Shown: positions 11,281 to 62,829 of the stretch, piece after piece
Position numbering within the stretch: position 1 is the first letter of the stretch
Layout of the letters: the number at the start of each line of letters is the position of its first letter
The notes under the pieces: generated by a model
Told to the model about the DNA's origin: nothing
Databases searched by the model: none
What the model saw: the letters and a program-made list of their open reading frames with translations, nothing else
Assembly (NCBI GenBank): GCA_946699065.1
Contig: CAMPDV010000039.1
Span: forward strand, 1,144,898 to 1,208,897
Reading direction: 5' to 3'
Length of the DNA: 64,000 nucleotides
From: Loxodes magnus
Taxonomy: Eukaryota; Ciliophora; Karyorelictea; Loxodida; Loxodidae
Position numbers and translations under genes: made by a program

Positions 11281-11287
11281 TTATAAT

Positions 11288-12121: not shown

Positions 12122-12129
12122 TTCTAAAT

Positions 12130-15100: not shown

Positions 15101-15130
15101 ATGTCTATAATTGAAGGAAGCAATTCATAC
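12130..15130 (+). pseudogene. LINE ORF2 reverse transcriptase, 5'-truncated and frameshifted
   Basis: A linker frame (about 12430-12840) leads to the RT domain. The recognisable blocks are GKAADPDGIKSELLKYGG (13070-13123), an RFG-W-IPQE segment followed by IIPVFKK (about 13170-13220), ATLIDIEKMLGSI (about 13459-13497), QGSSHGPVLALLYYDI (about 13650-13697) and the catalytic ADDLILLS (13780-13803). The base triplet before ADD, normally Tyr or Phe, is TGA, giving W-ADD. At the C-terminus CMCGEYDAIQAHF (about 14768-14806) is the Cys/His motif found after RT in many LINEs. Frames must be switched around 13240-13300 and elsewhere, so it is inactive or poorly assembled. No endonuclease domain was found. 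It belongs to the non-LTR class. The clade was not determined. Confidence 0.8.
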
Positions 15131-16330: not shown

Positions 16331-17590
16331 CATAATTGTATAATTAATGGCGTTTAACCATGCAAATTACGTTAAATTTACAAGTTTCTATATTTTCATT
16401 CCTGGTTCTCTTTCACTCTCATCTTGATAAAGAATTTTTCAGCTTATTAAATCTGTTTATGATTTTTTAATATAATCTATTTTCTTTTCACTCTAGTTCT
16501 AAGAATCTTTAACTTTCTTCTAAATATTATTGATGAAATATTTTTATGTACTTATCTAATTTAATTATCTTATCTTTTGTAAACTATTTATTAATATATT
16601 TTTAGTCATATAAAGCAAATCTTTTACACCATTAATTATTTTAAGTTTATTAACATTTTTTAAAATATCTGCAGATGATTACGCTTGAAAATGTGCTCAA
16701 ATGTATCAAAATCCTATCTACTTAAGCAAAGTTTATTGAATTGAGTTTTGATATATCGATGATTCAGTTCATTAAGAATTTTAAGTATAAGTCATTAGTT
16801 TTTAAATTGAAATAGTTTATTAAATTAGATGTCTATTGTATTTAGCGTATATTATTAAAGGGAAAATATTTAAACTAATTTCTTTTAAATCAACAAATCT
16901 TTCTGCTGTTAACATAACTGCATTTCTTTAAAGGCATTCTTAGAATTATTTTTTAGATTTAAATATTGCTGTATTTGTTAAACTCTTTGAAAACATCAAT
17001 TATAATATCTATTTGCAAAAATTAATAAGTAAGCAAGGTTTTGATTATCTTGCTAACTCTTCATTTAAAAAAATTAGTTATCTTACTTCAGATTTATTTC
17101 TTAACTCTGATTTTCGGAATAAAGATTAAATGGTGTAATTTTTATAGTTTTACAAGTAGAAGTTTATTTGCTAAATTGGAGCTAGAATTGCTGATATTGT
17201 AATGAAAGATAAAAATTAGCTTTAGAGGAATTCAGAATGCTGGGAACAAGATATCTAGAAAGAGAGTAATACTCTAATAAATTTATAATATAACATAATT
17301 TATTAAAGTGATTTCACCTTTTTTTGGATATCACAAAATTAGAGTTTGTAAAAAATTGTTCTTATCAGAAATTTTCTACGTTATATTTATCTGGTTTTTC
17401 CGGATCATAAGTTCTTGTAAATTGCCTTCTTTGTCCTCATGCTACTGCTTGGAAATCAAATCCTACTTATCAACTCTCAAATTGTCTCAGTGCATGTGTA
17501 ATCTTTGAAGCTTCTTAGTAAGGCTAAAATTTTTTTAATATATTCTTCCGTTTGGTGTGCAATAGATCTTAAATAGATTTTGAATTCCTC
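16331..17590 (-). other. Possible decayed coding, minus strand, unidentified
   Basis: On the minus strand one frame from about 17510 down to 16340 gives mixed, protein-like composition with Trp at both TGG and TGA codons. No domain is recognised. Its position just 3' of gag-like copy g3 on the same strand makes a retroelement remnant plausible. It could equally be chance sequence. Confidence 0.25.
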
Positions 17591-17599
17591 TTTTTTTTT

Positions 17600-18445
17600 C
17601 ATAATATTAATAATAATATACTAAATTAAAGTGTTCGTATCTCTGGGGATTTTAAACCCCTTCAATACATACCTCCAGAGTTCGTTCCTTGAGGTTTAAT
17701 AAAAAATTTCGGGACTCCCAGTTTTTTTGGAGTTCTGGCACTCATTTGAAAAAGCCTCCTTCTAAATATTCTTCCATTCTTGTCTAAAAAATTCTTGAAG
17801 GTACTCTCCAAATCTCTTCACTGTTTCTTCTCTGTTTATCCAAATATATCTTGCATCTCTTGTATGTGTGGAATCTTGATTTGCACAGGTAGCACAGCTT
17901 GACGATCCTTCTGGGATGAGTTATCTCTAAGGGTTTTGTGTATTCTAGTTTCATTTTATTTTCAGCTAAGGTTTAAGGTTAAATTCTTTTTTCTCCCAAA
18001 AGTTTCACTTCGATTTCCTGTTTAATTAATCTTTCTTCATTGCTTTAACTTTTCTATAATAATTTTTTGTTTTCTTTCTTTAATATCTAAACTTCTTCTT
18101 ATAGGTTACGGATAAATTTCATAAGTTATTCTATTTTTAGCTATTCAACATTTTTCTATTTCTACATTATTTTTTAGTTACCACTTTTCATGTAGTTGCT
18201 TGATCGTGGCTATGGGAGTAAAAAGTCTCGCTTGGTTTAGACAGTTTCTGTTTATTTAATTTCTTATTCAATTTAAGATTATCTTTATTTTTCTAAATTT
18301 GGGGGTTAAAGAGCCTAAGAAAAATATTAAGTTATTAAAGAAGACGTGGTAGGAGAAGAATTAGAAGCCTCTGGTTTTTTTTCCTTTTTCTATGTAGCTG
18401 GAAAAAACCCTTCTTGAGACCTTCTGCCATTTTTTTATATAAAAA
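17600..18445 (-). mobile_element. Gag-only retroelement relative, copy g3
   Basis: The layout is the same as the elements at 11.3 and 34.9 kb: an A-run and ATG at the 5' end (18430 on the minus strand), coiled coil, CCHC knuckle, and a TTA/TAT-rich tail at about 17600-17625. The sequence is diverged from those two, so it is a separate subfamily. No target-site duplication could be seen. Confidence 0.6.
17625..18430 (-). CDS. Gag-like protein of element g3 with canonical CCHC knuckle
   Basis: The ATG at 18430 begins MAEGLKKGF. A one-base shift in the following T-run is needed to join the rest. Then come a Pro/Ser/Thr-rich stretch, a coiled coil (LMKFIRNLQEEVQILKKEN, about 18062-18115) and the knuckle KLCYLCKSRFHTYKRC near 17850-17900, a perfect CX2CX4HX4C. 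A Trp/Arg/Glu-rich tail ends in the TTA run. One TGA lies downstream at a plausible Trp. The role is inferred as element RNA binding. Confidence 0.6.
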
Positions 18446-18519
18446 TTAATATCTTTATTATATCCTTTTATAATGCTGCCTTAATTATATAGTCAAATCA
18501 ACTAGATTCTATGAATCTA

Positions 18520-18875
18520 TAAATAAATAAATTTTATTATAGAGCGCGTAGCACTCTCATTGGTGCGCAGCTCTTTAAAAAAATGTTTCATACTGACAAG
18601 AATGTTTGTTACTGATAAAATTATCAGATACTGGTAGATCTTGTTCAATACTGGTATAATTATTCAGTACTGATAAAAATGTTCAATACTGATATAATTT
18701 TAGAATACTCGTAATCTTTAATACTTGTTGGAGGTCCAAGGACATGGCAGGATTGTGTCTCATTGTATCACCAAAGCAGAGGACGACATGTGTCAATTAT
18801 GGGTACTTAACTTCCCCAACCTCTGATGAAGATGACCTTGTTGTTCACCTTCGAACAACTATGGCGGTTTTAAAA
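18520..18875 (-). mobile_element. Short structured repeat S, copy 3 (longest simple copy)
   Basis: This is the most complete copy without the internal duplication. It has an (AAAT)n run, the GC hairpin at 18541-18574, about six 19-bp units, the shared block with CAGAGG and CCTCTG complementary arms around an inner GGG/CCCC, a 7-bp terminal hairpin at 18840-18859 and the end GGCGGTTTTAAAA. It encodes no protein that I can recognise. A (TTTA)n 3' tail on the minus strand suggests mobilisation by a LINE. Confidence 0.7.
18541..18574. other. GC-rich bulged hairpin of repeat S, copy 3
   Basis: This has the same sequence and structure as the copy at 8575-8608. Conservation among three dispersed copies supports a function in the element's RNA. 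Confidence 0.7.
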
Positions 18876-19895
18876 TATAATAAAATAAGCATCATTTACA
18901 AAACTATTTTGCAATCTTCATGAAAAAATTAATTTTTAGTTACCAAGCGTAGCAAGCTATTTTACTAAGCCATATTAATATAGTTTATTATTATGAAAAT
19001 GACTTAAACATTAACAAATAACTTGATTTTAAGAATGATTGAGGGAAAAATAAATCAATTAGTAATATTTGAATAAAGAAGACTTAAAATAATTATTTTT
19101 AGAATGAACAAAGATACAAGAAGAAGAGAAACTAAACTAAAAAAATCAAATCAAAACAATAATGAAGACCTAAGAGTTTCAGAATGAGAGTGATATCATA
19201 AAAATTATTTTATTAAGCTGAAAGGTGAACATTATTTAATTTAATTTAATCCTAAATGAAAATGACTAGGATTTAACTTTTAAATTATTGTTCTTACTAA
19301 GAGTTAATTATTTTATGAATATAAGTGTTTTTATCTTTATTTAAGCAATATCGTTTAGGAATAATAAATCAAATCATGATAGAAATTTATCTGCTTTATT
19401 ATTATTATTTTTATCCCTCAGAGAATTTATATTAGCTTCAATTTACTATTGAAACCCAGCGTATATATTTTAAATGGTACCCAGTATAGAATCGAACCCG
19501 CTCATATTAAACTTACTTACTAAAACTTTTTACTGAACCACTTACTTGATTGAGTTAACAATTTATAAAAATCTAAGTATATAATAAAGAACCAATTTAA
19601 ACCTGCTATTAGAAATAATTAGCGATAAAGCTTATTTATTAGTTAGATCTTTATATCATATTTTATTATTATTTAATAATATTCTAAAGCTAAATTTTAT
19701 TAAGATTTTAAACTGTGATTCCTTACTCTATTAAACATATATCACTACTTTTTTATTTGAACCTTACAAAAAAATTAAATTAAATAATTGAAAGATAGTT
19801 AAAGAAAATTCCTTAATGAGGCTTTTAAAAATAATTAAGGAGCTTAATTTAGAGATCAATTATATAATTAATTCCTTTTAAAAAAGTATAAAAAG
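18876..19895. other. AT-rich stretch; tRNA-like fragment only
   Basis: There is no gene. On the minus strand near 19475-19545, A-box-like and T-loop-like motifs sit at normal tRNA spacing, but the stems do not pair, so I do not call a tRNA. Confidence 0.4.
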
Positions 19896-22800
19896 TCACT
19901 AGTCATTTTTAATAGTTATCAAAGGAATACTTATCTCCAGATTTAAACTATTCATATTCTCTTCATTTTCTGTTCTAATATATTAACTTTTTTAATCTTC
20001 ACTGCTTTTGTTATCCTGAATACTTTCTCCTTTTTATTAAGCAAAATAAGATTCTTCTTAGAGTTTAGTAATAAATTTATTTGTTAGCTTCAATTTAAGT
20101 AAATCAATATTAGCTTCTATTTAGTTGCTCTTTAAAATTTTCCTTAGAATCTATATTATTTCTTCTATCTTTGGCCTTTAGCTCGGTTTAAAGCTGAAAC
20201 ATCTATTTATCATATCTTTTAATTCTCCCTTAATTGCTATACAGATTTCAGGATGCTTTTATTATGATAGATTGTTTACTATATTGAAATCATCTAACTT
20301 ATTTCATGGCCTATTTTATGTAAATAGCTCATTCAAAATACATCCAAATGCCCAGATATCTACAGGAGTTCCTATTTAAGTATCTAAAAAGAATTCAGGT
20401 GCCATATATTAAATAGTTCCAATCAACTAGCTATCAAAATGTCTGGTTTATTAATTATCTCCTGTAAATCTTGACATTCCAAAGTCTGCTATTTTTACGT
20501 TCAGCTAATCATCTAAGAGTATGTTTTCAGGCTTCAAATCTCGATGAATAATTTTATTAGGATGACTATGAAGATCACTTATTCCATAAGCTATTTATAG
20601 AGCTATTTATAGTCTAGTGCTGACACTTACTTCTTATTAGTTTTCATATATAAACTATAGTAAAGAGCAACTCATCAAATCCGAAATCAAACAAAACTGA
20701 TGCCTTACATCTAGACAAACTCCTCATAAGTGTAATAGATGATTTGATTTAAGTTCCATTACTATGATGATTTCCTTTAGCAAATCTTGAATTTATTCAT
20801 GATCTTAAGTTTATAAATTTGCTACTTTTATCGCCACATTTTTCTTATCAATCACTCCTTAAAACACTTTTCCGAAACTTCCTTCTCCTATTTTCGACTA
20901 AATAGAGTTTACTATTTTATCAAAGGTAAGAATTGCCACGTTACGCTAATCCAGTTCTTCCATTATTTGCAAATAGAGCTCATAAATTTCTTTCTTTTCC
21001 AGCTTCTCGTAGAGTTACATCAACTTCATTCTTTTTCTCTAGATCTTGGAGAAAACACTAAGTTAATATAGAATAGCAATAAGAGTTAGAAGTAGAATAC
21101 TGACATAAACATAAACTTCTAGATTTCCAGGTAAGAAGGAAGAAATAGTAATTTCATATCCTAACTGCTCTGGATTATTCAGGTTTATGGCAATTCAATA
21201 TTCAGGATAATAAGCACTTAAAGTACACTCATCTGACTTTTGCACTTCCGGATATAAAAAGAATTCATCTTGAAACTACTTTAACTTAAATACTTCTAGG
21301 ATATCTTACCAACTAAAATGAAGAACATAATTCTCTGCTCAGCAATTAACATCTAATCTTCTTTTAGTATGGCATATTCCTTAATCTCTTTTATAGAGTT
21401 TTAAGTATTACTATTGATATCTTTTGGCTTCATCTGAGTTTGTTCCTGCTTCACAATACTTCTTAGTATCATTTTTACTTTTTACACATTTACATTTAAA
21501 ACTTCAAAGTTATCCTTCTTTATTAGACTTCAAACAATCGGTATCTTAACCACAAAATTTATACTCAGAATCAAAAGGATATGCACAGACTATTTCACTA
21601 TCATGTATACAAGTAAAGCTTTAACAAGCAAACTAAACTATATTTGTACAGTTTTGATCAGTAAAAACATATCCTAAAGGAGCTGAAAAATAATCCATGC
21701 ATTTTTTATTTCTACACAGCTATGAGTTTATACATTAGTAGTCATTTTCGCAAAACGAGGAATTTATTTGCTCTTAGCATTAGTATCCTTATTTTTCTCT
21801 GTTATATATACAACTTAAACCTATATCACACGAAAAATCTTCACTACCGGTACAGTTTTCCAATAATCCTTTTCCTTTACAAACTCCGTTTATACAACTA
21901 ACTGTTGGAATACACTGATCATCACTTGTACAAAATGCTCCAGGATATAAATTTATTTGTTACTAAATTCTCTAATCGCAATAGAAATCTTATTGGTCAG
22001 TGAGTTAACATTAATCTTTTTTTTTCTTACAATTCTTTAAAAATCTTGTATCTGAACTCTCATCTAAGTGACCACATTGATAATTAGACCAAATGTATTA
22101 GAAATCTTCTTCACTTCAACACCCATACTTACTACATTGATATTCACTTTCGTTTTTTAATTGTTTTGCTATTTCAAATCAAAAGAAAATTGTATCTAAT
22201 ATACAAGAATCGGAGGATTAAACCTATAATTTATTAAAACTTACAAATGGAAAGAAATGATATTCGGTTGATGCAATAACCCATTAAGCTATTTTAATAA
22301 AGTCTAATTTATCTCTATTCTTGTATCAACATTCATAAGATCTTCTAAAATACGTTTAACAGATATCTTAATCATCATACATTACGCCTTTAAATGCTTC
22401 AATGTATTTCTATGTTTCGTCTGAACCTGAAAATGCTTCGCAATATGCATGCCCTTCACTATCACAAATGCATTTCCCTCTTACTTCGTCTCCATCTATG
22501 TTGCTAACTTAACAATCGCTTCCATATGCACATGGAATGTACTCGATATTAAAAGACTCTATACAAACTGCATATTCTCCTTGTTGTTTACAAGTAAAGC
22601 TTTAGCAAGCATAATTACAATATTCACACATTCCTATAGGATTCTCTTATTTGCATTACCCTTTTCATTTCCAACCCACTGGTTTTGAGAAATACAGAAT
22701 ACATTTCTATTCTCTACATACAGCATAATTAACACATTACCAATCATTTTCACAACTTACATCTTATGAAAGCTTTATCTACTTTTAGCATTTATAACTC

Positions 22801-25181
22801 TCATCATTTTAATGCTTTATACAAGCTAAACCTACTGAACATTCTACATCACTTCCATTTTTGCATTATTCTCCTTCTTTCTTTGAATCATTGAAGGAAA
22901 TTACACATTAATCTTAGGGACTTTCTCTATAATAATTTTAAATATAACAAGGAGATCTTAATAAATAATCTTTTTCTTCTATAATTTCCTAATAACTACA
23001 ATTTTACTCACTGAAATAATAAACTCCTGCTTGTCAATCAATTTTCATCGTACTATTGCAGTACAGTTATCCTTCACATTCTTAGTTAGCTCAATATTTT
23101 TCTCTTGCTTAATACTTTTAACATTCAAAAGGATTAAGACTTTAACTTTTCGAGCACCCATGTTCGAGACAAGTCATTTCCGGATAGAATTTCTTATTAA
23201 ATCCTTCTGTTTTTGCAATTCAGTATTCGGCAAAAATTATTTCTTAGGTGCAGTTTTCAGTTAAGTTATAGGATAAAGCAGGATAGTATTTTCACTCCCA
23301 TTACTTAATGATATATTAAGTTAATAAACCAATGCTTTCTTAATCCAAGTTATAGATTCAACATTCTATTTTAAGTCTATTCTTTGTATAACATTTATCT
23401 TAATCAATATCTTTCACTCTTTTAAGACTTTCTATATACTCTAACGTTACGTTATCTCCTGTATGAGCTCCACAGTAAGTTTCTCCTTAACTATAATCAC
23501 ATGAGAGGTTTACAAAGTTCAACTCATCTTTTTAGTTAATGCTTCTACAGTCTCATTTATTATCTGCTTTAATGGGTTATTCTTATGATGCTTTATAAGG
23601 AAAAGTACATTTCGATTACTTATTCTCCAGAGTTAAAGGTTCGCAGGTAAAAGACCTACATGCTAGTTACTGCTTTGTATTTAAATCGCAAGGAGCATTA
23701 ATGATCTCATTTATATTGAGAGAGAAGATTCCATAACATTAGTTTCCTAAACAAACAGCATCATTAGTACAATCATAATCATCTAAGCATTTTCTATCTT
23801 CTCCAGGTATAATTTATTTCTAGCACTTCTAATTTATACATGAAAGTCCAACTTCGCATATATGATCTTAGCATTCTTCGAATTCCTTTAATCCTTTACA
23901 TCTAAAGTTCATACACTTATTAGAAAAGCATTACTTATCTTGTATACAGAACTCTCCAGCATAAGCTTTAGCTAGTATGTATTTTTTATCTTATTAGCAG
24001 TATTAATTTTCTATATCTGTCTATTAATCTTAATAGCATGTTTAATTAATGCAGGGATCTAAAAATATTAAATCTTATTATTTATAGATGCATAAATTAT
24101 TTTAAAGCTCCTAGCATTAGAAAGTATAGCACTCTTGATGAAAAGTCAAAAATTATTTTGAATTGTAATATTAGAAATTAGTACTCAAAATGGAGTATAA
24201 TAATGTATCATCTATGTAACTGTAATTGACTCCATAGTTTATAATAGGTAGTCATTCCATTAGTACTATACCACTTAATATTGTTAAAGCATATGTGTTA
24301 AGATGATATTTCCAACATTCAAAATTAAACCTTTGTGAGGTATAACAAACTCCGTTTGTAAGTTATAATCAAGGAACTAAGTAATTCTTGAAATCATGCT
24401 TAAAGTTTTATGCTAAGTTAGAGGACATTTCTACCTTACAGAATGAGTTACTTTCTTTGGAAGATACAGCACATCCACATATACCAAAACTGCCAGATTC
24501 ATAAGCGCAATCATTCATTTTAGTTTCATCAGAACAAGGCATAGGAGGAGTGTGAAGACTTACAGGAGGATCCATACATTTATAGCCTTAAGTTAGATTA
24601 TCTAAAGAGCAATACATAGATTCACACTAAATGTAAAAGATATCCATAAAGTTATATGAAGAATAATTTTAGTAATAGCATATTGAATCAAAATTTTCAA
24701 GTTATTCTATTTAACATTACTAATTGTTTTAAACTGATAAGTAAGGAACGCAAACTGAATTACATGTTAAGTTATTTAAGCAATCAGTTGATTATTAGCA
24801 AATCTATCCTTCTAGTTTCTATTTTTAGCACTAATTGGACGTCAAATTACAGAATTCTCCAATCTCACAATCGTAGAAAGCTGTGCAAGTATTATGTTTA
24901 ACACTTTAACATGTGTTATTATTGCAATTTTTACTTACGCAAAAAGCATTATTAATACAGTATTCTCCTGTATTGTTTTGGTTTATCAAGCAAATTCCCT
25001 TAAAATGCAAATTTACACATGTCTGCTGATTAACTTCTTTACAAAACTAAACTTTTATTATAGGAGGATCCCTGCATATGTAGCAATGTTTTTACTAAAT
25101 AGTAGTGGAAACGAACTTTGCGCATTCTATACTTAATCCCAACTAAACTAAAGTGAGAATTATGAAAATGTGAGTTTTCAT
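19896..25181 (-). CDS. Receptor protein kinase A: Cys-rich ectodomain, TM, TKL-like kinase
   Basis: This is a single 1,761-residue frame from the ATG at 25181 to the TGA at 19896-19898, with TAR = Gln and 17 internal TGA = Trp. The signal peptide is MKTHIFIILTLVQLGLS. The ectodomain (to about residue 1350) is dense in Cys with NxS/T sites and has four internal repeats, each marked by a Cys-Trp pair at residues about 290, 608, 952 and 1281. The TM segment is at about 1355-1374 (VSILLLTLIAILY). The kinase domain has GEGSFGKV (about 1431), VAIK, HRDLKPEN (about 1546), DFG (about 1566), YMAPE, DIWAFG, and PSQRP near the C-terminus. All catalytic residues are present. It probably senses an external cue and phosphorylates proteins at the cell surface. 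The ligand is unknown. The C-terminal tail (from about residue 1690) is unlike B and C. The family level is secure and the role is inferred. Confidence 0.9.
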
Positions 25182-27130
25182 TTTATAAATGTGGTATAAT
25201 TGAAAATAAGTTGAGTAATTAGGACTTTATGCTCTCTTTTAGATAAAATTAATATAAGATAAGTATAAATTCCTGAATAAGCTTTTATTAGAGAGTTCGA
25301 AGATATACTTTATGAAGTATTAGTTTATGAGTAAAGGCTTTAATTCAATGATTAGTATAGTTGATCTAAGAATTAATAGGATAATTACTTCTAAAGTTGG
25401 TTTTGATTTTTTTTATGATATATCAAATATTATTATATTTAGCTTATTTAAGTTCTAAAAACCATTTTGTACTTATATGATTTATAGGTATTATTTCTCT
25501 ATCCCTAAGTTTGATAAGTCTGTTTTTTACTTAAATCTCATTTAATAAAAGATTTTGCTTAGTTCTAGGAAGTTTTTGCTTTGAAGTATAAATTTGTATA
25601 TGTTTATACTTAGCTCTTTTAAAGAGTTCTAATGGAAGTAATAAAAGTGATAAGTCTCATTTTATTATTCCTAGATTTTATGCTTTTTAATTAGTTTCGC
25701 TAATGAATTTTAAAATCCCTCTTTATTATAGTTCTGCTTATAAATTACTGCTAGAAAAATGAATAATAATCAGCATCAAAATACAAACAAGCTATTTATA
25801 ATGCAATATCTTAAATTTAGGTGTAATATTCAATCTCATGCTGGAAGAAATAAGACTTAATAAATATCTTATTAGAGGTAATAAAATCTGAAAGTATTCA
25901 GATAAATTTAGTTATTAATCAACAAATCTCATATATTATGCATAAAAGAACTGCTAATACTAATGTAATCATTTATACTAAGATATATTTAGAAAAGAAG
26001 CAACGAACTCTTAACCCAACTGCTATTAAGAAGTATATTGATTTCTCTTTTAGAGTAATAATAAATATATAGGATATTTTATAAAAATAAGCTTTTCTAT
26101 TTAAATAAATAAAATAAGCTTTAATCACGTACAACTAATAAAACTTATAAAGGTATTAGTAAGATGCTAAAGAATTAAACTAAGCTATATAATCTAAATC
26201 TAATATTAATAATAATAGCTAGAAATTTAAAAGAAGAGTTTATTTCATCTTCTTTAAATGTATATTATGCACCTTATTTTCTTAAATTAGTTTAATAACT
26301 AACTAATTATATTTACTAAATATAACTTCAATTATACATCTTTTACCATACCATTTATTAGGAGATATGATTTTTAACTAAATTTATTTCGTTTTGCTAT
26401 AAAATATTTAGACTTTACTCTTTTATTATATTTTACAGTTATAATTGAGATTTAATACTCATTTAATAGTTTAAATTATCAAAATAATTTAAAACCTTAG
26501 CCTATGACAAATTCTTGACTTTATCCCTTGTTTAATTTGGCTTTAAATTAATTATATTGCTTATCTAGACATTAAATCTATATTAAGGATTTAATTCCTT
26601 ATATTATATACAACATTGAAGTTAAATTTTTAGAAATATTTTAATTTTATTAGCATGCTTTATTTAGATTAAGCATTTAATATATGTACTTAGAAATTCA
26701 TTAAGTGTAAATTATAACTGGAAACTTAAAAATTCAAGGTTTTTTTTGGGTTTTTAACCAGTTTAGATTGTTCTATTTTTGTTATAATGGAATTCTCATT
26801 CGTTTTTAAATATGAATTGCTAGCTTTATCTTAATAAAATTTTATCTGTCTCATATATTTTTTTGTAAGGTTCTATTATTATTTATAAATGAGGCTTAAA
26901 AATTCTTCAATTTCTTTATCCTTTATTTTTAAGTCTTTTTTAGTGCTAAAGCAACAATTTACTAGATGATAGACAGAATTGTAATATAATCATATTTTTT
27001 ATTCTATTTCAGCTCTGGCTATGGAAGAATGTATTTTTTTAGTTTTCCCAATCTTTTATTAACTTTGCTTTTTATTTTATTTTATATTCAAGCAATCACG
27101 ATATTAGTCTTAATTATCATTCGAAAATGT
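25182..27130. other. Upstream region of kinase A, no clear gene
   Basis: A TTTATAAA-like stretch sits just upstream of the kinase start and is a possible promoter element. Further up, the frame of the small ORF at 27131-27463 continues past its TGA as protein-like sequence to about 26,720, so that gene could be longer. Repeated in unit 2 at 44424-46390 with more indels than in the coding parts. Confidence 0.4.
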
Positions 27131-27463
27131 TCAATTTAGTCGAGTTAGGATTTTATGCGCTGATTATTTTAATTTTTTGAGCAAGCTATTTATAAGGATA
27201 TGGATCTTCTAAACTTAGTTACTTGTTATGTATAAAAAATCTCTTATTTTCTTTGAAAGATTACTCATATGATTGTCGAGCATTTATTTTATTTCCGCAT
27301 TGCTTTATACAACTTCGCTAGTTTACAATTATAAGAGTTCTAATTTAACTTACTTTAAGTTGAATGTTTTGAAACTATAACAAAAATCTTAGTTATTTTT
27401 GCTTCTTTTCAGCTAATCTTATGATTTTCCATTTAATTTTTTAAATAACTTGTAAATTTCCAT
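27131..27463 (-). CDS. Small Lys/Leu-rich protein (110 aa), unit 1
   Basis: The ATG at 27463 opens MEIYKLFKKLNGKSQDQLKR and reaches a TGA at 27131-27133. Composition is helical and charged, with no known domain. It starts 70 bases after the Gln-rich gene's probable stop and on the same strand, so it could be a separate gene or a later exon of it. The unit 2 copy (ATG at 46711) has a one-base insertion near the 3' end, which argues against strong constraint there. The call is tentative. Confidence 0.35.
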
Positions 27464-27532
27464 TTTAATTTAATTGCTTAAATAATAAAATATCAAATTA
27501 AATTAATTTTCTTAGATTAAAAGTATAAAAAT

Positions 27533-30500
27533 TCATAGCTTTATTTCTTCAGCTGGATATTACTTATCAAGTATCTATTTCTACAAATTCTCTTGTAGCT
27601 TATTAATATAACCTTGTTCAAAATATTTTGGGTAGAATTCAGAAATTTTTTAAATATGCTAAACCAATATTTTGCTTATTAGTATGTTAGAATATTTCTC
27701 ATCTTTTTTTAAAACTGGAGGAAGCTATTATTGTAGAGGCTAAACTTATTACTTACTTTATTATGATTGGACTGATTCCATATTCTTTTATGTTTCTTAA
27801 TTTGGAACTGCTTTAATATCTTAGTTGTATAATATTTTGACAGTTTCTTTTATTTAAAAGCTGGAGTATGAAGCTTGACAATTTTCAATAAATGTAATGC
27901 AACTCTACTGAGGTAATAGAATTATCTATTCTTTTAGTTTGCTTGATAGTTCATAATTCTCTTATCTTTACTATTTAGTAGCTTTTAATAGTTCTTCATT
28001 TGAACTTTCTTCACTTTCTTCATCTGATTCTATCTCGATGCTTGATTTGAATGCATTTTCTTATAGCAGGGAACTCTAAGCGATCAAGAATACAGATCTA
28101 TAAGAAAGTGTTTGAATGGCTGAAAGTTTGCGTTCAAAAGTTTTTTGCATACTGCTAAGGGACAGTTAAAGTTCTTAAAGTAGCTTGACATCTATTGCAA
28201 GAACATCGTCTAAATGGCTATTAATTTAATAGTCTAAAAGCTATTTTTTTTCTTATTTGCTGTGATCACTAGATGAATCTTCGGCCATAAAGTAGATTTT
28301 GAATTATTTGAGTACACTAGGAGGTAGAAACCCTGAGTTTGCTATAGTCAATAGTTACTTAATTAATCCTTTTGCGATTTATTCATCTTGCTTTGACAGT
28401 AAAAGACTTCTATCGAACTTCTTTTAATTTATCCATTATATGCTTCAATCTGATTTTTTCATATTAACGAAAGCAATTTTATTACTTCTTTGAACTGCCT
28501 GAATGACTTCTTGATTTTCAGGTTTGCTAATGATTTTATAGACCGTATCATTAGAGATATCATCAGTATTGAACTTAACAAGATAGTTAATATTCTCTAC
28601 TTTCGTTAAGAGTTCATGCTTTTATAGCTAAATTCATCTAATGCTAGAAATCATTTTATGCAAGCTAAGTTAACTTTAAAACTGCTTACTTAGAGTCATG
28701 AGTTCTTCATACTTACTATTTACTTAATGAATTCTTATTTGAATTGCTTCTTTATCACTTATCATTCCATAAATATATCAATTAAAAAGCACCGTGAAAC
28801 CACCATAATTGCTTAGCTCTTAGTATATTTGATGAGTTTCAAAATCTTGAGAAGATAAAAGCTGGAAAATAACCAAAGCACTGAAAGGAATAATATTAGC
28901 TGTATTTTTAATATAATCATCAAGTCCTTTTCTTTCCATGTATAAAGCCAGCGATACTATCTAGAAACTATTGAGCTAGAAATCTCTTACTACTTGCTTA
29001 AAGTAGTTATATAGCTACCTTTATTTACACCAGCTAAATAATTATTTCGTACTTCATTTTTCTTCTCTAGCTACTTCGCTAATTTATAAAAGCTTTCTAA
29101 ATTCTTAGTGTAAGTTATATTGAAAAGCTTAGTCATTAAAAATTCAAATAATCAAACCTTTTAAAAGCTATTTTTCAAATTTTTTATAATCTTTATCATA
29201 ATTAACCTTTAGAATTTTAATCCTCTCAGTTTACTTCTATAAGCTATCTAGTCATTGCTATTTTTATTCATTTGTAATATTAATTTTAGTCTTATTTGAG
29301 TAATTTTATATTACTTATTAGTAAACTTTGAGAAGATTTGAGTTTTCCTCTTATTAATCCATATTATTTAAGAAACTGTTCAATTTGCTAAAGAAGTCTG
29401 CATATTAGAGTTTCTGATTATTCCTTTATTTTTCTGTTTAAGACATTTAGTATTGTTTCGTTGATGTCTTGCTGTTTGCCTTCTCTAAATTTTACCTTTG
29501 CACCGATTTTTATTTCTTATCTTCTGTTTTTTTAATCCAGTTTTATAAAGTTTGTTGAATGAGTTATTAATCTCCAGCTTATGAAAAGGTAATTTACTAA
29601 TTTAGCTGATTTTCAATCACAATCACTAGGCTTTACATTTCCTGTACCTGGCTTTAATTTAAATTCTGCTAGCATGAAATAAAGGTTTTAACGAACATTA
29701 TTAAGGTATTTTATTTTGGATTTGCATTAGTCTAGAAGTTAACTAGCTAAATAAAGTTCTTATATTGTTATCTTTCTTCCAGTTTAGTTTCTACTAATTA
29801 TTAATCTTAAGCATCTTAAAGTTATAATAAGTTACTTACAAGTAAGATTATCTAATTAACTATCAGTCGGTAAAAGTCTATATTTCCTACTCCTTAACTC
29901 ATTAGGCTTAGTTATTCTTATGGTATATACTTATAGTTATCAGGATTACTCTCAAGTATTAGAAATATTTAGTTTTTTAAGAGTTCAAGCTAGACTGGCT
30001 AGTTTAAAAATCTAACCGTTTATAAGTCTTAACTAACTAGAACTGAATACCCTTAAAGTATTACAAGTAAATTAGATTAAAGGAGTTTTAAGGTAAAAGT
30101 TAAGACTTTATAAACGAATAGTTCTAACTATTAACAAGTGAAACTATCATTTTGATTCCTTTGCTGCATTAATTAAGATAATGGATATAGTTAGTTTTGC
30201 TCTATTGATTACGGGATTTTTATTTCATTAATGCTCATGATACTACTTTCATTAGTTGATTCTCTTATTTAATGACAGACTAAGCAAATATCACTAATAT
30301 TTTATTTCTTAAAGTATTAAATTTACTTTCTCTTATAGCATTCCATTAAAGTGTATTACTCTATATCTTTGTATATTTCAATTTTAATAAGTCTATAATT
30401 CTTTTCTTTATCTTAAACTGTCAAATAAAATTCTATTCGAGATTTTCCAAGGCTATAGGCAGAAACAATCTTAGGCTCACTAAAGTTTAAATCTTTGAAT

Positions 30501-34855: not shown

Positions 34856-34870
34856 AAGAGTCAATTATCT
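34856..34870. repeat. Target-site duplication, left copy
   Basis: AAGAGTCAATTATCT is present immediately before the A-run of the inserted element and again at 35719-35733. Unit 2 has it once, at the uninterrupted site. Confidence 0.95.
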
Positions 34871-34886
34871 AAAAAAAAAAAAAAAA

Positions 34887-35712: not shown

Positions 35713-35718
35713 ATTATT

Positions 35719-35733
35719 AAGAGTCAATTATCT
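35719..35733. repeat. Target-site duplication, right copy
   Basis: This is the same 15 bases as 34856-34870, followed by the flank TTTAATTTAAGG that continues in unit 2 directly after its single copy. Confidence 0.95.
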
Positions 35734-39224: not shown

Positions 39225-42200
39225 TCAATTATTAGAAGTGTAGGAAGGAGATCTTATTTCAAAATATTTATTAAACTACTTTGTTCTCACATTTACCTCC
39301 TATCTTTCAACTTAAAATTTGGTTATATTTTTATTATTGTCTATTAATTCCTTAGAATTAATATTAGCTTCTATTTCGTCTTTCTCTAAAATTTTTCTTA
39401 GAATCTGTATTATTTCTTCTATTTTTGGCCTTTAGCTTGGATTAAAACAGAAGCAACTATTTATTATTGATCTTAATTCCCCCTTAATTGATGTACAGAT
39501 TTAAGGATATTTTTGCTAAACCAAGTTACTAATTATTTAATAATTATCCAACTTATTTTATGTAAATAGCTCAGTCAAAATACATCCAAATGCCCAGATA
39601 TCTACAGGAGTTCCTATTTAAGTATCTAAAAAGAATTCAGGTGCCATATATTAAATAGTTCCAATCAACTAGCTATCAAAATGTCTGGTTTATTAATTAT
39701 CTCCTGTAAATCTTGACATTCCAAAATCTGCTATTTTTACGTTCAGCTAATCATCTAAGAGTATGTTTTCAGGCTTTAAATCTCGATGAATAATTTTATT
39801 AGGATGACTATGAAGATCATTTATTCCATAAGCTATTTATAGAGCTATTTATAGTCTAGTGCTGACACTTACTTCTTATTAGTTTTCATATATAAACTAT
39901 AGTAAAGAGCAACTCATCAAATCCGAAATCAAACAAAACTGATGCCTTACATCTAGACAAACTCCTCATAAGTGTAATAGATGATTTGATTTAAGTTCCA
40001 TTACTATGATGATTTCCTTTAGCAAATCTTGAATTTATTCATGATCTTAAGTTTATAAATTTGCTACTTTTATCGCCATATTTTTCTTATCAATCACTCC
40101 TTTAAACACTTTTCCGAAACTTCCTTCTCCTATTTTCGACTAAATAGAGTTTACTATTTTATCAAAGGTAAGAATTGCCACGTTACGCTAATCCAGTTCT
40201 TCCATTATTTGCAAATAGAGCTCATAAATTTCTTTCTTTTCCAGCTTCTCGTAGAGTTACATCAACTTTATTCTTTTTCTCTAGATCTTGGTGAAAACAC
40301 TGAGTTAGTATAGAATAAAAATAAGAGTTAGAAGTAGAATACTGACATAAACATAGATTTCTAGATTTCCAGGTAAGAAGGAAGAAATAGTAACTTCATA
40401 TCCTAACTGCTCTGGATTATTCAGGTTTATGGCAATTCAATATTCAGGATAATAAGCACTTAAAGTACACTCATCTGCCATTTGCACTTCCGGATATAAA
40501 AAGAATTCATCTTGAAACTACTTTAACTTAAATACTTCTAGGATATCTTACCAACTAAAATGAAGGACATAATTCTCTGCTCAGCAATTAACATCTAATC
40601 TTCTTTTAGTATGGCATATTCCTTAATCTCTTTTATAGAGTTTTAAGTATTATTATTGATATCTTTTGGCTTCATCTGAGTTTGTTCCTGCTTCACAATA
40701 CTTCTTAGTATCATTTTTACTTTTTACACATTTACATTTAAAACTTCAAAGCTATCCTTCTTTATTAGGCGTCAAACAATCAGTATCTTAACCACAAAAT
40801 TTATACTCAGAATCAAAAGGTTATGCACAGACTATTTCACTATCATGTATACAAGTAAAGCTTTAACAAGCAAACTAAACTATATTTGTACAGTTTTGAT
40901 CAGTAAAAACATAACCTAAAGGAGCTGAAAAATAATCCATGCATTTTTTATTTCTACACAGCTATGAATTTATACATTAGTAATCATTTTCACAAAACGA
41001 GGAATTTATTTGCTCTTAGCATTAATATCCTTATTTTTCTCTGTTATATATACAACTTAAACCTATATCACACGAAAAATCTTCACTACCGGTACAGTTT
41101 TCCAATAATCCTTTTCCTTTACAAACTCCGTTTATACAAATAACTGTTGGAATACACTGATCATCACTTGTACAAAATGCTCCAGGATATAAATTTATTT
41201 GTTACTAAATTCTCTAATCGCAATAGAAATCTTATTGGTCAGTGAGTTAACATTAATCTTTTTTGTTCTTACAATTCTTTAAAAATCTTGTATCCGAACT
41301 CTCATCTAAGTGACCACATTGATAATTAGACCAAATGTATTAGAAATCTTCTTCACTTCAACACCCATATTTACTACATTGATATTCACTTTCGTTTTTT
41401 TATTTTTTCGCTAGTTCAAATCAAAAGAAAATTGTATCTAATTTACAAGAATCGGAGGATTAAACCTGTAATTTATTAAAACTTACAAATGGAAAGAAAT
41501 GATATTCAGTCGATGTAATAACCCATTTAATTATTTTAAGTAAGTCTAATTTGTCTCTATTCTTGTACCAACATTCATAAGATCTTCTAAAATACGTTTA
41601 GCAAATATCTTAGTCATCATACATTACGCCTTTAAGTGCTTCAATGTATTTCTATGTTTCGTCTGAACCTGAAAATGCTTCGCAATATGCATGCCCTTCA
41701 CTATCACAAATGCATTTCCCCCTTACTTCGTCTCCATCTATGTTGCTAACTTAACAATCGCTTCCATATGCACATGGAATGTACTCGAAATTAAAAGACT
41801 CTATACAAACTGCATATTCTCCTTGTTGTTTACAAGTAAAGCTTTAGCAAGCATAATTACAATATTCACACATTCCTATAGGATTCTCTTATTTGCATTA
41901 CCCTTTTCATTTCCAACCCACTGGTTTTGAGAAATACAGAATACATTTCTATTCTCTACATACAGCATAATTAACACATTACCAATCATTTTCACAACTT
42001 ACATCTTATGAAAGCTTTATCTACTTTTAGCATTTATAACTCTCATCATTTTAATGCTTTATACAAGCTAGACCTACTGAACATTCTACATCACTTCCAT
42101 TTTTGCATTATTCTCCTTCTTTCTTTGAATCATTGAAGGAAATTACACATTAATCTTAGGGACTTTCTCTATAATAATTTTAAATATAACAAGGAGATCT

Positions 42201-44423
42201 TAATAAATAATCTTTTTCTTCTATAATTTCCTAATAACTACAATTTTACTCACTGAAATAATAAACTCCTGCTTGTCAATCAATTTTCATCGTACTATTG
42301 CAGTACAGTTATCCTTCACATTTTTAGTTAGCTCAATATTTTTCTCTTGCTTAATACTTTTAACATTCAAAAGGATTAAGACTTTAACTTTTCGAGCACC
42401 CATGTTCGAGACAAGTCATTTCCGGATAGAATTTCTTATTAAATCCTTCTGTTTTTGCAATTCAGTATTCGGCAAAAATTATTTCTTAGGTGCAGTTTTC
42501 AGTTAAGTTATAGGATAAAGCAGGATAGTATTTTCACTCCCATTACTTAATGATATATTAAGTTAATAAACCAATGCTTTCTTAATCCAAGTTATAGATT
42601 CAACATTCTATTTTAAGTCTATTCTTTGTATAACATTTATCTTAATCAATATCTTTCACTCTTTTAAGACTTTCTATATACTCTAACGTTACGTTATCTC
42701 CTGTATGAGCTCCACAGTAAGTTTCTCCTTAACTATAATCACATGAGAGGTTTACAAAGTTCAACTCATCTTTTTAGTTAATGCTTCTACAGTCTCATTT
42801 ATTATCTGCTTTAATGGGTTATTCTTATGATGCTTTATAAGGAAAAGTACATTTCGATTACTTATTCTCCAGAGTTAAAGGTTCGCAGGTAAAAGACCTA
42901 CATGCTATTTATTGCTTTGTATTTAAATCGCAAGGAGCATTAATGATCTCATTTATATTGAGAGTGAAGATTCCATAACATTAGTTTCCTAAACAAACAG
43001 CATCATTAGTACAATCATAATCATCTAAGCATTTTCTATCTTCTCCAGGTTTAATTTATTTCTAGCACTTCTAATTTATACATGAAAGTCCAATTTCGCA
43101 TATATGATCTTAGCATTCTTCGAATTCCTTTAATCCTTTACATCTAAAGTTCATACACTTATTAGAAAAGCATTACTTATCTTGTATACAGAACTCTCCA
43201 GCATAAGCTTTAGCTAGTATGTATTTTTTATCTTATTAGCAGTATTAATTTTCTATATCTGTCTATTAATCTTAATAGCATGTTTAATTAATGCAGGGAT
43301 CTAAAAATATTAAATCTTATTATTTATAGATGCATAAATTATTTTAAAGCTCCTAGCATTAGAAAGTATAGCACTTTTCATGAAAAGTCAAAAATTATTT
43401 TGAATTGTAATATTAGAAATTAGTACTCAAAATGGAGTATAATAATGTATCATCTATGTAACTGTAATTGACTCCATAGTTTATAATAGGTAGTCATTCC
43501 ATTAGTACTATACCACTTAATATTGTTAAAGCATATGTGTTAAGATGATATTTCCAACATTCAAAACTAAACCTTTGTGAGGTATAACAAACTCCGTTTG
43601 TAAGTTACAATCAAGGAACTAAGTAATTCTTGAAATCATGCTTAAAGTTTTATGCTAAGTTAGAGGACATTTCTACCTTACAGAATGAGTTACTTTCTTT
43701 GGAAGATACAGCACATCCACATATACCGAAACTGCCAGATTCATAAGCGCAGTCATTCATTTTAGTTTCATCAGAACAAGGCATAGGAGGAGTGTGAAGA
43801 CTTACAGGAGGATCCATACATCTATAGCCTTAAGTTAGATTATCTAAAGAGCAATACATAGATTCACACTAAATGTAAAAGATATCCATAAAGTTAAATG
43901 AAGAATAATTTTAGTAATAGCATATTGAATCAAAATTTTTAAGTTATTCTATTTAACATTACTAATTGTTTTAAACTGATAAGTAAGGAACGCAAACTGA
44001 ATTACATGTTAAGTTATTTAAGCAATCAGTTGATTATTAGCAAATCTATCCTTCTAGTTTCTATTTTTAGCACTAATTAGATGTCAAATTACAGAATTCT
44101 CCAATCTCACAATCGTAGAAAGCAGTGCAAGTATTATGTTTAACACTTTAACATGTGTTATTATTGCAATTTTTACTTACGCAAAAAGCATTATTAATAC
44201 AGTATTCTCCTGTATTATTTTGGTTTATCAAGCAAATTCCCTTAAAATGCAAATTTACACATGTCTGCTGATTAACTTCTTTACAAAACTAAACTTTTAT
44301 TATAGGAGGATCCCTGCATATGTAGCAATGTTTTTACTAAATAGTAGTGGAAACGAACTTTGCGCATTCTATACTTAATCCCAACTAAACTAAAGTGAGA
44401 ATTATGAAAATGTGAGTTTTCAT
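39225..44423 (-). CDS. Receptor protein kinase B (chimeric, apparently intact)
   Basis: The frame from the ATG at 44423 to the TGA at 39225-39227 is 1,733 codons with no frameshift found. The signal peptide, four-repeat Cys-rich ectodomain, TM segment and kinase motifs match gene A nearly residue for residue, including most TGA = Trp codons. Differences cluster in the kinase C-lobe: four residues equivalent to RPWN in A are missing before KLDN, and the tail from about residue 1630 is like gene C, ending near SPSYTSNN. A-like 5' and C-like 3' halves indicate origin by unequal crossing-over. It is likely functional; the missing residues lie after the conserved Asp-Ile-Trp and Gly of helix F, outside the active site. 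Gln-rich gene copy 2 lies upstream. Confidence 0.88.
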
Positions 44424-57616: not shown

Positions 57617-60600
57617 TCAATTATTAGAAGTGTAGGAAGGAGATCTTATTTCAAAATATTTATTAAACTACTTTGTTCTCACATTTACCTCCTATCTTTC
57701 AACTTAAAATTTGGTTATATTTTTATTATTGTCTATTAATTCCTTAGAATTAATATTAGCTTCTATTTCGTCTTTCTCTAAAACTTTTCTTAGAATCTGT
57801 ATTATTTCTTCTATTTTTGGCCTTTAGCTTGGATTAAAACAGAAGCAACTATTTATTATTGATCTTAATTCCCCCTTAATTGCTGTACAGATTTCAGGAT
57901 ATTTTATTATGATAGATTGTTTACTATATTAAAATCATCTAACCTATTTCATGGTCTATTTTATGTAAATAGCTCATTCAAAATACATCCAAATGCCCAG
58001 ATATCTACAGGAGTTTTTTATTTAAGTATCTAAAAAGAATTCAGGTGCCATATATTAAATAGTTCCAATCAATTAGCTATCAAAATGTCTGGTTTATTAA
58101 TTATCTCCTGTAAATCTTGACATTCCAAAATCTGCTATTTTTACGTTCAGCTAATCATCTAAGAGTATGTTTTCAGGCTTTAAATCTCGATGAATAATTT
58201 TATTAGGATGACTATGAAGATCACTTATTCCATAAGCTATTTATAGAGCTATTTATAGTCTAGTGCTGACACTTACTTCTTATTAGTTTTCATATATAAA
58301 CTATAGTAAAGAGCAACTCATCAAATCCGAAATCAAACAAAACTGATGTCTTACATCTAGACAAACTCCTCATAAGTGTAATAGATGATTTGATTTAAGT
58401 TCCATTACTATGATGATTTCCTTTAGCAAATCTTGAATTTATTCATGATCTTAAGTTTATAAATTTGCTACTTTTATCGCCACATTTTTCTTATCAATCA
58501 CTCCTTTAAACACTTTTCCGAAACTTCCTTCTCCTATTTTCGACTAAATAGAGTTTACTATTTTATCAAAGGTAAGAATTGCCACGTTACGCTAATCCAG
58601 TTCTTCCATTATTTGCAAATAGAGCTCATAAATTTCTTTCTTTTCCAACTTCTCGTAGAGTTACATCAACTTCATTCTTTTTCTCTAGATCTTGGTGAAA
58701 ATACTAAGTTAGTATAGAATAAAAATAAGAGTTAGAAGTAGAATACTGACATAAACGTAGATTTCTAGATTTCCAGGTAAGAAGGAAGAAATAGTAATTT
58801 CATATCCTAACTGCTCTGGATTATTCAGGTTTATGGCAATTCAATTTTCAGGATAATAAACACTTAAAGTACACTCATCTGACTTTTGCACTTCTGGATA
58901 TAAAAAGAATTCATCTTGAAACTACTTTAACTTAAATACTTCTAGGATATCTTACCAACTAAAACGAAGAACATAATTCTCTGCTCAGCAATTAACATCT
59001 AATCTTCTTTTAGTATGGCATATTCCTTAATCTCTTTTATAGAGTTTTAAGTATTACTATTGATATCTTTTGGCTTCATCTGAGTTTGTTCCTGCTTCAC
59101 AGTACTTCTTAGTATCATTTTTACTTTTTACACATTTACATTTAAAACTTCAAAGTTATCCTTCTTTATTAGACGTCAAACAATCGGTATCTTAACCACA
59201 ATATTTATACTCAGAATCAAAAGGATATGCACAGACTATTTCACTATCATGTATACAAGTAAAGCTTTAGCAAGCAAACTAAACTATATTTGTACAGTTT
59301 TGATCAGTAAAAACATATCCTAAAGGAGCTGAAAAATAATCCATGCATTTTTTATTTCTACACAGCTATGAGTTTATACATTAGTAGTCATTTTCGCAAA
59401 ACGAGGAATTTATTTGCTCTTAACATTAATATCCTTATTTTTCTCTGTTATATATACAACTTAAACCTATATCACACGAAAAATCTTCACTACCGGCACA
59501 GTTTTCCAATAATCCTTTTCCTTTACAAACTCCGTTTATACAACTAACTGTTGGAATGCACTGATCATCACTTGTACAAAATGCTCCAGGATATAAATTT
59601 ATTTGTTACTAAATTCTCTAATCGCAATAGAAATCTTATTGGTCAGTGAGTTAACATTAATCTTTTTTGTTCTTACAATTCTTTAAAAATCTTGTATCTG
59701 AACTCTCATCTAAGTGACCACATTGATAATTAGACCAAATGTATTAGAAATCTTCTTCACTTCAACACCCATACTTACTACATTGATATTCACTTTCATT
59801 CTTTTATTTTTTCGCTAGTTCAAATCAAAAGAAAATTGTATCTAATATACAAGAATCGGAGGATTAAACCTATAATTTATTAAAACTTACAAATGGAAAG
59901 AAATGATATTCAGTCGATGTAATAACCCATTAAGCTATTTTAATAAAGTCTAATTTATCTCTATTCTTGTATCAACATTCATAAGATCTTCTAAAATACG
60001 TTTAACAGATATCTTAATCATCATACATTACGCCTTTAAATGCTTCAATGTATTTCTATGTTTCGTCTGAACCTGAAAATGCTTCGCAATATGCATGCCC
60101 TTCACTATCACAAATACATTTTCCTCTTATTTCGTCTCCATCTATGTTGCTAACTTAACAATCACTTCCATATGCACATGGAATGTACTCGATATTAAAA
60201 GACTCTATACAAACTGCATATTCTCCTTGTTGTTTACAAGTAAAGCTTTAGCAAGCATAGTTACAATATTCACACATTCCTATAGGATTCTCTTATTTGC
60301 ATTACCCTTTTCATTTCCAACCCACTGGTTTTGAGAAATACAGAATACATTTCTATTCTCTACATACAGCATAATTAACACATTACCAATCATTTTCACA
60401 ACTTACATCTTATGAAAGCTTTATCTACTTTTAGCATTTATAACTCTCATCATTTTATTGCTTTATACAAGCTAAACCTACTGAACATTCTACATCACTT
60501 CCATTTTTGCATTATTCTCCTTCTTTCTTTGAATCATTGAAGGAAATTACACATTAATCTTAGGGACTTTCTCTATAATAATTTTAAATATAACAAGAAG

Positions 60601-62829
60601 ATCTTAATAAATAATCTTTTTCTTCTATAATTTCCTAATAACTACAATTTTACTCACTGAAATAATAAACTCCTGCTTGTCAATCAATTTTCATCGTACT
60701 ATTGCAGTACAGTTATCCTTCACATTCTTAGTTAGCTCAATATTTTTCTCTTGCTTAATACTTTTAACATTCAAAAGGATTAAGACTTTAACTTTTCGAG
60801 CACCCATGTTCGAGACAAGTCATTTCCGGATAGAATTTCTTATTAAATCCTTCTGTTTTTGCAATTCAGTATTCGGCAAAAATTATTTCTTAGGTGCAGT
60901 TTTCAGTTAAGTTATAGGATAAAGCAGGATAGTATTTTCACTCCCATTACTTAATGATATATTAAGTTAATAAACCAATGCTTTCTTAATCCAAGTTATA
61001 GATTCAACATTCTATTTTAAGTCTATTCTTTGTATAACATTTATCTTAATCAATATCTTTCACTCTTTTAAGACTTTCTATATACTCTAACGTTACGTTA
61101 TCTCCTGTATGAGCTCCACAGTAAGTTTCTCCTTAACTATAATCACATGAGAGGTTTACAAAGTTCAACTCATCTTTTTAGTTAATGCTTCTACAGTCTC
61201 ATTTATTATCTGCTTTAATGGGTTATTCTTATGATGCTTTATAAGGAAAAGTACATTTCGATTACTTGTTCTCCAGAGTTAAAGGTTCGCAGGTAAAAGA
61301 CCTACATGCTAGTTACTGCTTTGTATTTAAATCGCAAGGAGCATTAATGATCTCATTTATATTGAGAGAGAAGATTCCATAACATTAGTTTCCTAAACAA
61401 ACAGCATCATTAGTACAATCATAATCATCTAAGCATTTTCTATCTTCTCCAGGTTTAATTTATTTCTAGCACTTCTAATTTATACATGAAAGTCCAACTT
61501 CGCATATATGATCTTAGCATTCTTCGAATTCCTTTAATCCTTTACATCTAAAGTTCTTACACTTATTAGAAAAGCATTACTTATCTTGTATACAGAACTC
61601 TCCAGCATAAGCTTTAGCTAGTATGTATTTTTTATCTTATTAGCAGTATTAATTTTCTATATCTGTCTATTAATCTTAATAGCATGTTTAATTAATGCAG
61701 GGATCTAAAAATATTAAATCTTATTATTTATAGATGCATAATTATTTTAAAGCTCCTAGCATTAGAAAGTATAGCACTCTTGATGAAAAGTCAAAAATTA
61801 TTTTGAATTGTAATATTAGAAATTAGTACTCAAAATGGAGTATAATAATATATCATCTATGTAACTGTAATTGACTCCATAGTTTATAATAGGTAGTCAT
61901 TCCATTAGTACTATACCACTTAATATTGTTAAAGCATATGTGTTAAGATGATATTTCCAACATTCAAAATTAAACCTTTGTGAGGTATAAAAAACTCCGT
62001 TTGTAAGTTACAATCAAGGAACTAAGTAATTCTTGAAATCATGCTTAAAGTTTTATGCTAAGTTAGAGGACATTTCTACCTTACAGAATGAGTTACTTTC
62101 TTTGGAAGATACAGCACATCCACATATACCGAAACTGCCAGATTCATAAGCGCAATCATTTATTTTAGTTTCATAAGAACAAGGCATAGGAGGAGTGTGA
62201 AGACTTACAGGAGGATCCATACATCTATAGTCTTAAGTTAAATTATCTAAAGAGCAATGCATAGATTCACACTGAATGTAAAAGATATCTAAATGATTAT
62301 TAACAGCGGAAAAATAGTTATTACATAAAATAGAATCATATGCAATAGGTCTGATTGAACATTAATTTTAATTATAAACTGATAAGTAAGGAACGCAAAC
62401 TGAATTACATGTTAAGTTATTTAAGCAATCAGTTGATTATTAGCAAATCTATCCTTCTAGTTTCTATTTTTAGCACTAATTAGATGTCAAATTACAGAAT
62501 TCTCCAATCTCATAATCTAAATCTGAGAAGCAATTCTATTTGTTAGACTTTTAGCATATATTTTCAATGCATTCTAAACTCTTACAGAAAGAATTACCTA
62601 AGCACTACTCTCCCGTATTATTCTACTTTAAAGCACAAATGCCATCATTTCCATGAATATTACAAATTTGACCTTTAGGTTCAGTACATAACTAAGTTTG
62701 AATAGCATCAAATGGGTCATAGCAAGTATAGCAGTGATTTTTCTAAATATCTTTTACAAAAAATCTAGGGCATTCTAAAGTAAAGCTGAGTTGAACTAAA
62801 GCTAAAGTAATAATAATAGCTTCTTTCAT
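57617..62829 (-). pseudogene. Receptor protein kinase C, frameshifted, with distinct N-terminus
   Basis: The homology runs from the ATG at 62829 to the TGA at 57617-57619. The signal peptide (MKEAIIITLALVQLSFT) and the first 120 or so residues differ from A and B but keep Cys spacing and NxT sites. Length is 5,213 bases, not a multiple of three, and agrees with three visible indels: loss of one A near 61739, gain of one base at about 58014-58020, and loss of one near 57900. The last two put about 36 residues of the kinase C-lobe (including DIWAFG) out of frame, and the first truncates the protein near residue 360. If these are real the gene is dead. If they are assembly errors it is a third full kinase. 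Its 3' tail matches B. Confidence 0.8.
57761..62250. repeat. Tandem duplication unit 3 (partial)
   Basis: Only the kinase gene is present. Similarity to units 1 and 2 is high until about 62236, breaks between about 62280 and 62375, resumes briefly to about 62510, then is lost. This gives gene C a distinct N-terminus. Confidence 0.85.

Follow-up and report, generated by a model that had tools for sequence, protein, structure and literature searches.

UGA as tryptophan and as probable stop in a multi-copy receptor-like kinase gene of the karyorelictean ciliate Loxodes magnus: a known code read again from raw DNA

The window analysed here is a stretch of 64,000 nucleotides from the karyorelictean ciliate Loxodes magnus (contig C39, 1144898-1208897, of a genome assembly of 705,730,643 bases in 7843 contigs). 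It carries on its minus strand a receptor-like protein kinase gene, which is our subject together with the meaning of UGA in it. The frame 25181-19896 runs uninterrupted over 1762 codons when TAA and TAG are read as Gln and TGA as Trp, and closes with TGA. It contains 17 sense TGA, 8 TGG, 101 TAA and 31 TAG codons plus the one terminal TGA; TGA occurs 18 times in the gene frame versus 27 and 76 times in the other two. Pfam places a Pkinase/PK_Tyr_Ser-Thr domain at the C-terminal end (about residues 1427-1679, E about 1e-53), and Cys-rich repeats and a putative membrane span can be recognized by eye. An earlier reading of this DNA, hereafter the first-pass annotation, had drawn attention to a Cys-x pair in each of four internal repeats and to two TGAs in the kinase domain; on re-reading of the sequence, all six positions proved exact. 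The features, with the codon found at each Trp site in related sequences of the genome, are as follows.

19896..25181, minus strand: copy 1 of the receptor-like kinase gene, open under translation table 27, with 1761 sense codons before the terminal TGA
24312..24317, minus strand: Cys-Trp (TGT-TGG) of repeat 1; TGG in 16/20 and TGA in 4/20 related sequences
23358..23363, minus strand: Cys-TGA of repeat 2; TGA in 21/21 related sequences
22326..22331, minus strand: Cys-TGA of repeat 3; TGA in 15/24 and TGG in 9/24 related sequences
21339..21344, minus strand: Cys-TGA of repeat 4; TGA in 21/24 and TGG in 3/24 related sequences
20724..20726, minus strand: kinase-domain TGA in L-x-GVC; TGA 20, TGG 2, AGA 1, AAG 1 (n = 24)
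20304..20306, minus strand: kinase-domain TGA in RP-x-N; TGA in 21/23 and TGG in 2/23 related sequences
19896..19898, minus strand: terminal TGA, presumed stop; the closest sense TGA lies 136 codons upstream

Searching the kinase protein against its own genome gave 30 matches, and the 29 that remain when the gene itself is excluded were codon-aligned to it; these loci and their aligned cells are not independent, since many of the loci were duplicated recently and some represent parts of a single gene. At the 17 window TGA sites, the 380 cells of the relatives hold TGA 328 times, TGG 21 times and another codon 31 times, so that TGG is the commonest replacement (21 of the 52 departing cells). 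The exchange also runs in the opposite direction. The 8 window TGG sites comprise 184 cells (TGG 129, TGA 42, other 13), and 42 of the 55 cells departing from TGG are TGA. A swap between the two codons is seen at 15 of the 25 Trp sites (8 of 17 TGA sites and 7 of 8 TGG sites), and the four Cys-x sites have either TGA or TGG in 89 of 89 cells. This uniformity, like the low number of TGAs in the gene frame relative to the other two, exceeds what chance would give. TAA, TAG, CAA and CAG likewise replace one another in the alignment. An alternative is that UGA is a stop only, in a Paramecium/Tetrahymena-type code with UAR (UAA or UAG) as Gln, and that loci with internal TGA are decaying pseudogenes. 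The kinase does form part of a recent multi-copy repeat, which would suit such decay. However, its TGAs lie at Trp sites and exchange mainly with TGG, and long kinase frames are preserved in relatives as far as about 50% identity.

Sense TGA is present outside the kinases as well. For the Dynein_heavy family, 15 of 33 match rows contain TGA, some rows resembling separate exons of a single gene and one lying under the cut-off. Four of the 15 rows were read, and their domains contain nine TGAs in all. Two of the four domains were compared with solved dyneins, TGA being masked as X. Opposite the TGAs of these two domains, Trp fills 23 of the 25 cells contributed by solved dyneins and Phe the other 2, although the solved chains are partly the same protein (axonemal heavy chain 1, different entries) and one chain occurs in both sets. 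By domain, with five main alignments each, Trp fills 15 of 15 cells in one and 8 of 10 in the other. The remaining two domains, not set against solved structures, have TGAs at matching motif positions. If UGA were a stop only, dyneins with TGA at the Trp positions of solved dyneins would all have to be dead.

The identity of the residue was examined across the kinase family, in which 91 of the 136 domain matches of the genome have an in-frame TGA (counted by eye). We read 48 of these domains, namely 26 of the 45 TGA-free and 22 of the 91 TGA-bearing ones, 20 of the latter chosen for at least two TGAs. The 26 TGA-free domains, with TAA and TAG masked, served to build a profile against which all 20 residues were scored at each TGA site of the other 22. 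These 22 domains have 48 such sites. Trp is top at 23 of them, with summed scores of +118 for W, +64.5 for Y and +49.9 for F; the unmasked version, with TAA and TAG as Gln, also gives Trp at the top in 23/48. Among the controls, TGG (23 sites) returns Trp as top at 17 (summed W +77.2, next F and Y), TGT returns Cys and AGA returns Arg. For TAA and TAG, Gln either leads the sums or ties with Lys, and Lys is top at more single sites. CAA gives Gln; the test is nevertheless weak for this residue, because at the control codon CAG the score of Lys (20.0) exceeds that of Gln (19.5). One domain (L054), which has four TGAs, scores 269.5 bits against Pfam with Trp at these sites, the runner-up being Tyr with 263.1. 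The D-hydrophobic-W motif in the 48 loci is written with TGG 26 times and TGA 16 times, a ratio affected by the choice of loci.

The sequence around the terminal TGA changes composition. G+C content (GC) falls from 0.289 (28.9%) in the kinase coding sequence (CDS) to 0.190 (19%) in the 100 nucleotides past this codon. Passages of the Loxodes genome paper give 18.6% for 3′-untranslated regions and 33.5% for CDSs, and they describe a genome-wide depletion of sense UGA in about the last 20 codons (PMC11441545). The terminal TGA is preserved in 11 of the 12 near-relative kinase loci printed. Four distant relatives printed have no TGA at the exact site; in these, 2, 7, 75 and 117 codons separate the match end from the next in-frame TGA. 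The conserved codon and the AT-rich DNA after it are read from the sequence; that translation would terminate there is taken from published work.

The first-pass annotation had also called for a genome search for a tRNA-Trp(UCA). A plant tRNA-Trp used as query led to one gene, and with that gene as the next query 40 of 131 candidates were scored and 40 matches listed. On contig C148 lie 34 of the 40 matches listed. A tandem array there (C148:157290-165068) contains at least 33 tRNA-Trp-like genes with a period of 241-242 bases, and one more gene lies apart, inverted. We read ten tRNA genes from nine loci, and no UCA anticodon occurs among these ten (of the 40 matches listed). The four read on C148 (three from the array and the inverted one, of the 34 listed) are identical tRNA-Trp(CCA) genes. 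In all four, T27 and C43 are unpaired, and this U27-C43 mismatch would leave an anticodon stem of 4 base pairs (bp). In a separate genome search with the Rfam tRNA model, 63 out of 42,786 candidates were scored. Passages of papers on the 4-bp mechanism state that Loxodes possesses a tRNA-Trp with a 4-bp stem (PMC13092985; PMC12005148), and its occurrence in Loxodes is therefore already known.

From these sequence data we conclude, with a probability of roughly 0.97, that the window is karyorelict nuclear DNA, almost certainly from the Loxodes magnus macronuclear assembly, and uses NCBI code 27, in which UAR is Gln, an internal UGA is Trp and a UGA near the 3′ end is the stop. The reading of UAR as Gln and of UGA as Trp and also as stop is that of the first-pass annotation, and it fits the interchange, residue and dynein tests as well as the published Loxodes code.

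Several observations weigh against this assignment. At the TGA sites, 31 of the 380 cells in relatives are neither TGA nor TGG, and in the profile test a residue other than Trp scores highest at 25 sites out of 48. The window kinase domain, with its two TGAs, ranks Trp third of 20 against PF00069 (Y 186.2, F 185.9, W 185.4) and only eighth of 20 against PF07714. The two TGAs had been described as falling where Trp is common in kinases of this type. Pfam does not favour Trp at them; three solved kinases (CTR1, EGFR, ABL1) have Leu or Met at the L-x-GVC site, and at the RP-x-N site Trp is found in CTR1 and Tyr in EGFR and ABL1. The kinase-domain argument is thus weak alone, because the window domain does not single out Trp. 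It is conceivable that UGA encodes a different residue, such as Cys, its meaning in Euplotes, or an aromatic one other than Trp, given that in the profile tests Tyr comes next after Trp and is followed by Phe, that Tyr is top for the window kinase domain alone and that TAT stands at TGA sites in some distant relatives. However, Tyr and Phe follow Trp at the TGG control sites too, TGG is what most often replaces TGA among the kinase relatives (21/52), and Trp occupies 23/25 of the dynein cells. We consider a residue other than Trp highly improbable.

Further points against the assignment come from conserved genes. Both eRF1 copies above the cut-off lack sense TGA, and all four Trp codons are TGG; a third, sub-threshold match of the family has one TGA. 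Sense TGA is also absent from 12 of the 13 class-I synthetase match rows, four of these TGA-free rows being of equal score on one contig, and present in 1 of 13. It appears, therefore, that some conserved genes use TGG alone for Trp. In Blastocrithidia, according to passages of one paper, highly expressed genes avoid reassigned codons (PMC12153298). The first-pass annotation had named conserved genes with UGA solely as a terminal stop as evidence against reassignment; eRF1 and most synthetase rows are of this kind, but dyneins and kinases clearly are not. These TGA-poor genes, with TGA at the end alone in both eRF1 copies, are also what a code with UGA as stop only would produce, yet the dyneins and the Trp-site kinases leave decaying pseudogenes a very unlikely explanation. 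Alternatively, UGA could be a stop that undergoes programmed readthrough in a few genes, with no general reassignment. Such a scheme would accommodate the uneven use of TGA, frequent in kinases and dyneins and missing from eRF1 and nearly all synthetase rows. Conversely, it would have to explain 17 sense TGAs in one gene, TGA in 91/136 kinase matches and the preference for Trp at TGA sites. To our knowledge, the TGA load of the kinases is far above any known readthrough case, and we give this scheme very little credence.

The remaining points against concern the stop and the tRNA genes. One near relative (L019) lacks the terminal TGA and has TAG-TAA there, the next in-frame TGA lying about 168 codons on; this kinase may be extended, or dead. 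Three tRNA-Trp(CCA) genes on contig C110 have T27 paired with A43 and hence a normal 5-bp stem. Two other C110 genes on the tRNA-Trp backbone have the anticodons CCT and CAT, so that this contig (L082, L083, L085, L086, L087) holds tRNA-like genes with a common backbone and the anticodons CCA (5-bp stem), CCT and CAT. A minimum-free-energy fold of one C110 tRNA gave no cloverleaf. The tRNA read on C7736 has a CCA anticodon with the pair broken lower in the stem, and ARAGORN makes no call for it.

Two structural classes of tRNA-Trp(CCA) are thus seen in one genome, a 4-bp tandem array and dispersed 5-bp copies. A comparison can be made with Amoebophrya, where, in passages of one paper, the top anticodon-stem pair of tRNA-Trp(CCA) is likewise unpaired, with U and C there, but in 1 of 7 tRNA-Trp(CCA) (PMC12005148); here 34 listed copies are on C148, 33 of them in tandem, and the 5-bp copies are on another contig. 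The array and its coexistence with 5-bp copies in Loxodes do not appear in the passages of the literature on the 4-bp mechanism that we consulted. A tentative and rather doubtful proposal is that the expression ratio of the two classes sets the strength with which UGA is read as Trp, TGG-only genes being insulated. If both classes are expressed, genes such as eRF1 would then be protected from changes in the strength of UGA reading.

The eRF1 sequences have other features of their own. The ends of the two frames (L039 and L040) contain three and two in-frame TGAs, respectively, inside six codons, and such clusters are possibly a safeguard for an ambiguous stop. The genome's eRF1 could be aligned over 404 residues to a solved eukaryotic eRF1 (3j5y), which we take to be the human protein. 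In this alignment TASNIKS is replaced by RAQNIKS and YLCDNKF by FLCENTF, and the Ser of RLSVLGAI, presumably Ser70, is replaced by Ala. In Blastocrithidia, Gly is reported at the position taken as Ser70, in passages of the same paper cited above (PMC12153298).

The code itself is not new. The kinase observation is real and its reading is correct, but Condylostoma and the karyorelict Parduczia were already reported in 2016 to have an ambiguous stop/sense code, as passages of that paper state (PMC4967479), and the 2024 genome paper, in the passages available, gives UAA and UAG as Gln and UGA as Trp or stop (NCBI table 27) for Loxodes, citing a 2022 paper on karyorelict ciliates (PMC11441545). 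Between the window and karyorelict table 27 (Loxodes, Parduczia) we found no difference: UAR is Gln, UGA is Trp or, presumably, stop, and AT-rich DNA follows the presumed stop. The claim that no dedicated stop codon is left agrees with this published code, in which UGA is the sole stop and is itself ambiguous. Condylostoma magnum (table 28) shares UAR as Gln and UGA as Trp, and there, too, the ambiguity is published to be settled near the mRNA 3′ end; in Condylostoma UAA and UAG serve as stops too. Ribosome profiling in Condylostoma showed even coverage across internal TGAs, according to passages of the 2016 paper (PMC4967479).

Published work suggests how the two meanings could be separated. 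A tRNA-Trp(CCA) with a loosened top anticodon-stem pair would decode UGA through near-cognate pairing, whereas termination at UGA would prevail solely where the poly(A) tail is close. That eRF1 competes for UGA and that poly(A) plays a part are adopted from the published work, whereas the Trp meaning of sense TGA and the putative 4-bp-stem tRNA genes are seen in the present DNA. A code whose sole stop codon is a sense codon too is biologically striking; the present analysis confirms it independently from raw DNA, corrects the weight given to individual sites, and adds the co-occurrence of two tRNA-Trp(CCA) classes within a single genome.

The window contains large segmental duplications. The regions 20102-34870 and 39356-54125 (14.8 kb) are 98.8% identical, and 35719-44114 and 54111-62517 (8.4 kb) are 98.0% identical, so that 39302-64000 is mostly a 97-99% copy of DNA from between 20102 and 44114. 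The window therefore holds three copies of the kinase gene, the third being partial.

39300..44423, minus strand: kinase copy 2 (matched part), DNA 98.8% identical from 39356 on, with a differing 3′ end
57692..61780, minus strand: kinase copy 3, part (main piece), C39:1202589-1206677

Ten more kinase loci, on C39, C1755, C176, C226 and C228, match over at least 1700 residues with 83-98% protein identity.

TGA-encoded Trp had further been claimed for gag zinc knuckles, a LINE polymerase and a Gln-rich gene. No such retroelement domain was found by Pfam (E<=0.01) in the frames scanned with introns left in, namely 1700-18401 and 25200-39301 on the plus strand and 1700-19501 and 25300-39301 on the minus strand, where domains may be cut at the borders and from which 1-1699, the kinase surroundings and 39302-64000 lie outside; the Gln-rich gene was not identified. 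Two sub-threshold Pfam matches, CIDR1_gamma and CYTL1, were regarded as chance hits. One CCHC-like motif containing a TGA is found both at 35421 (plus strand) and at 11538 (minus strand), around which no Pfam domain was found; its presence at two places in opposite orientation makes a repeat likely. A CCHC-like motif without TGA lies at 17853 (minus strand). Neither ARAGORN (bacterial code) nor Rfam (gathering scores) detected RNA genes in the window. Finally, 484-1696 consists of the 9-base unit GAAAGAAGA repeated perfectly in tandem, with 134.8 copies at 100% match and all six frames open.

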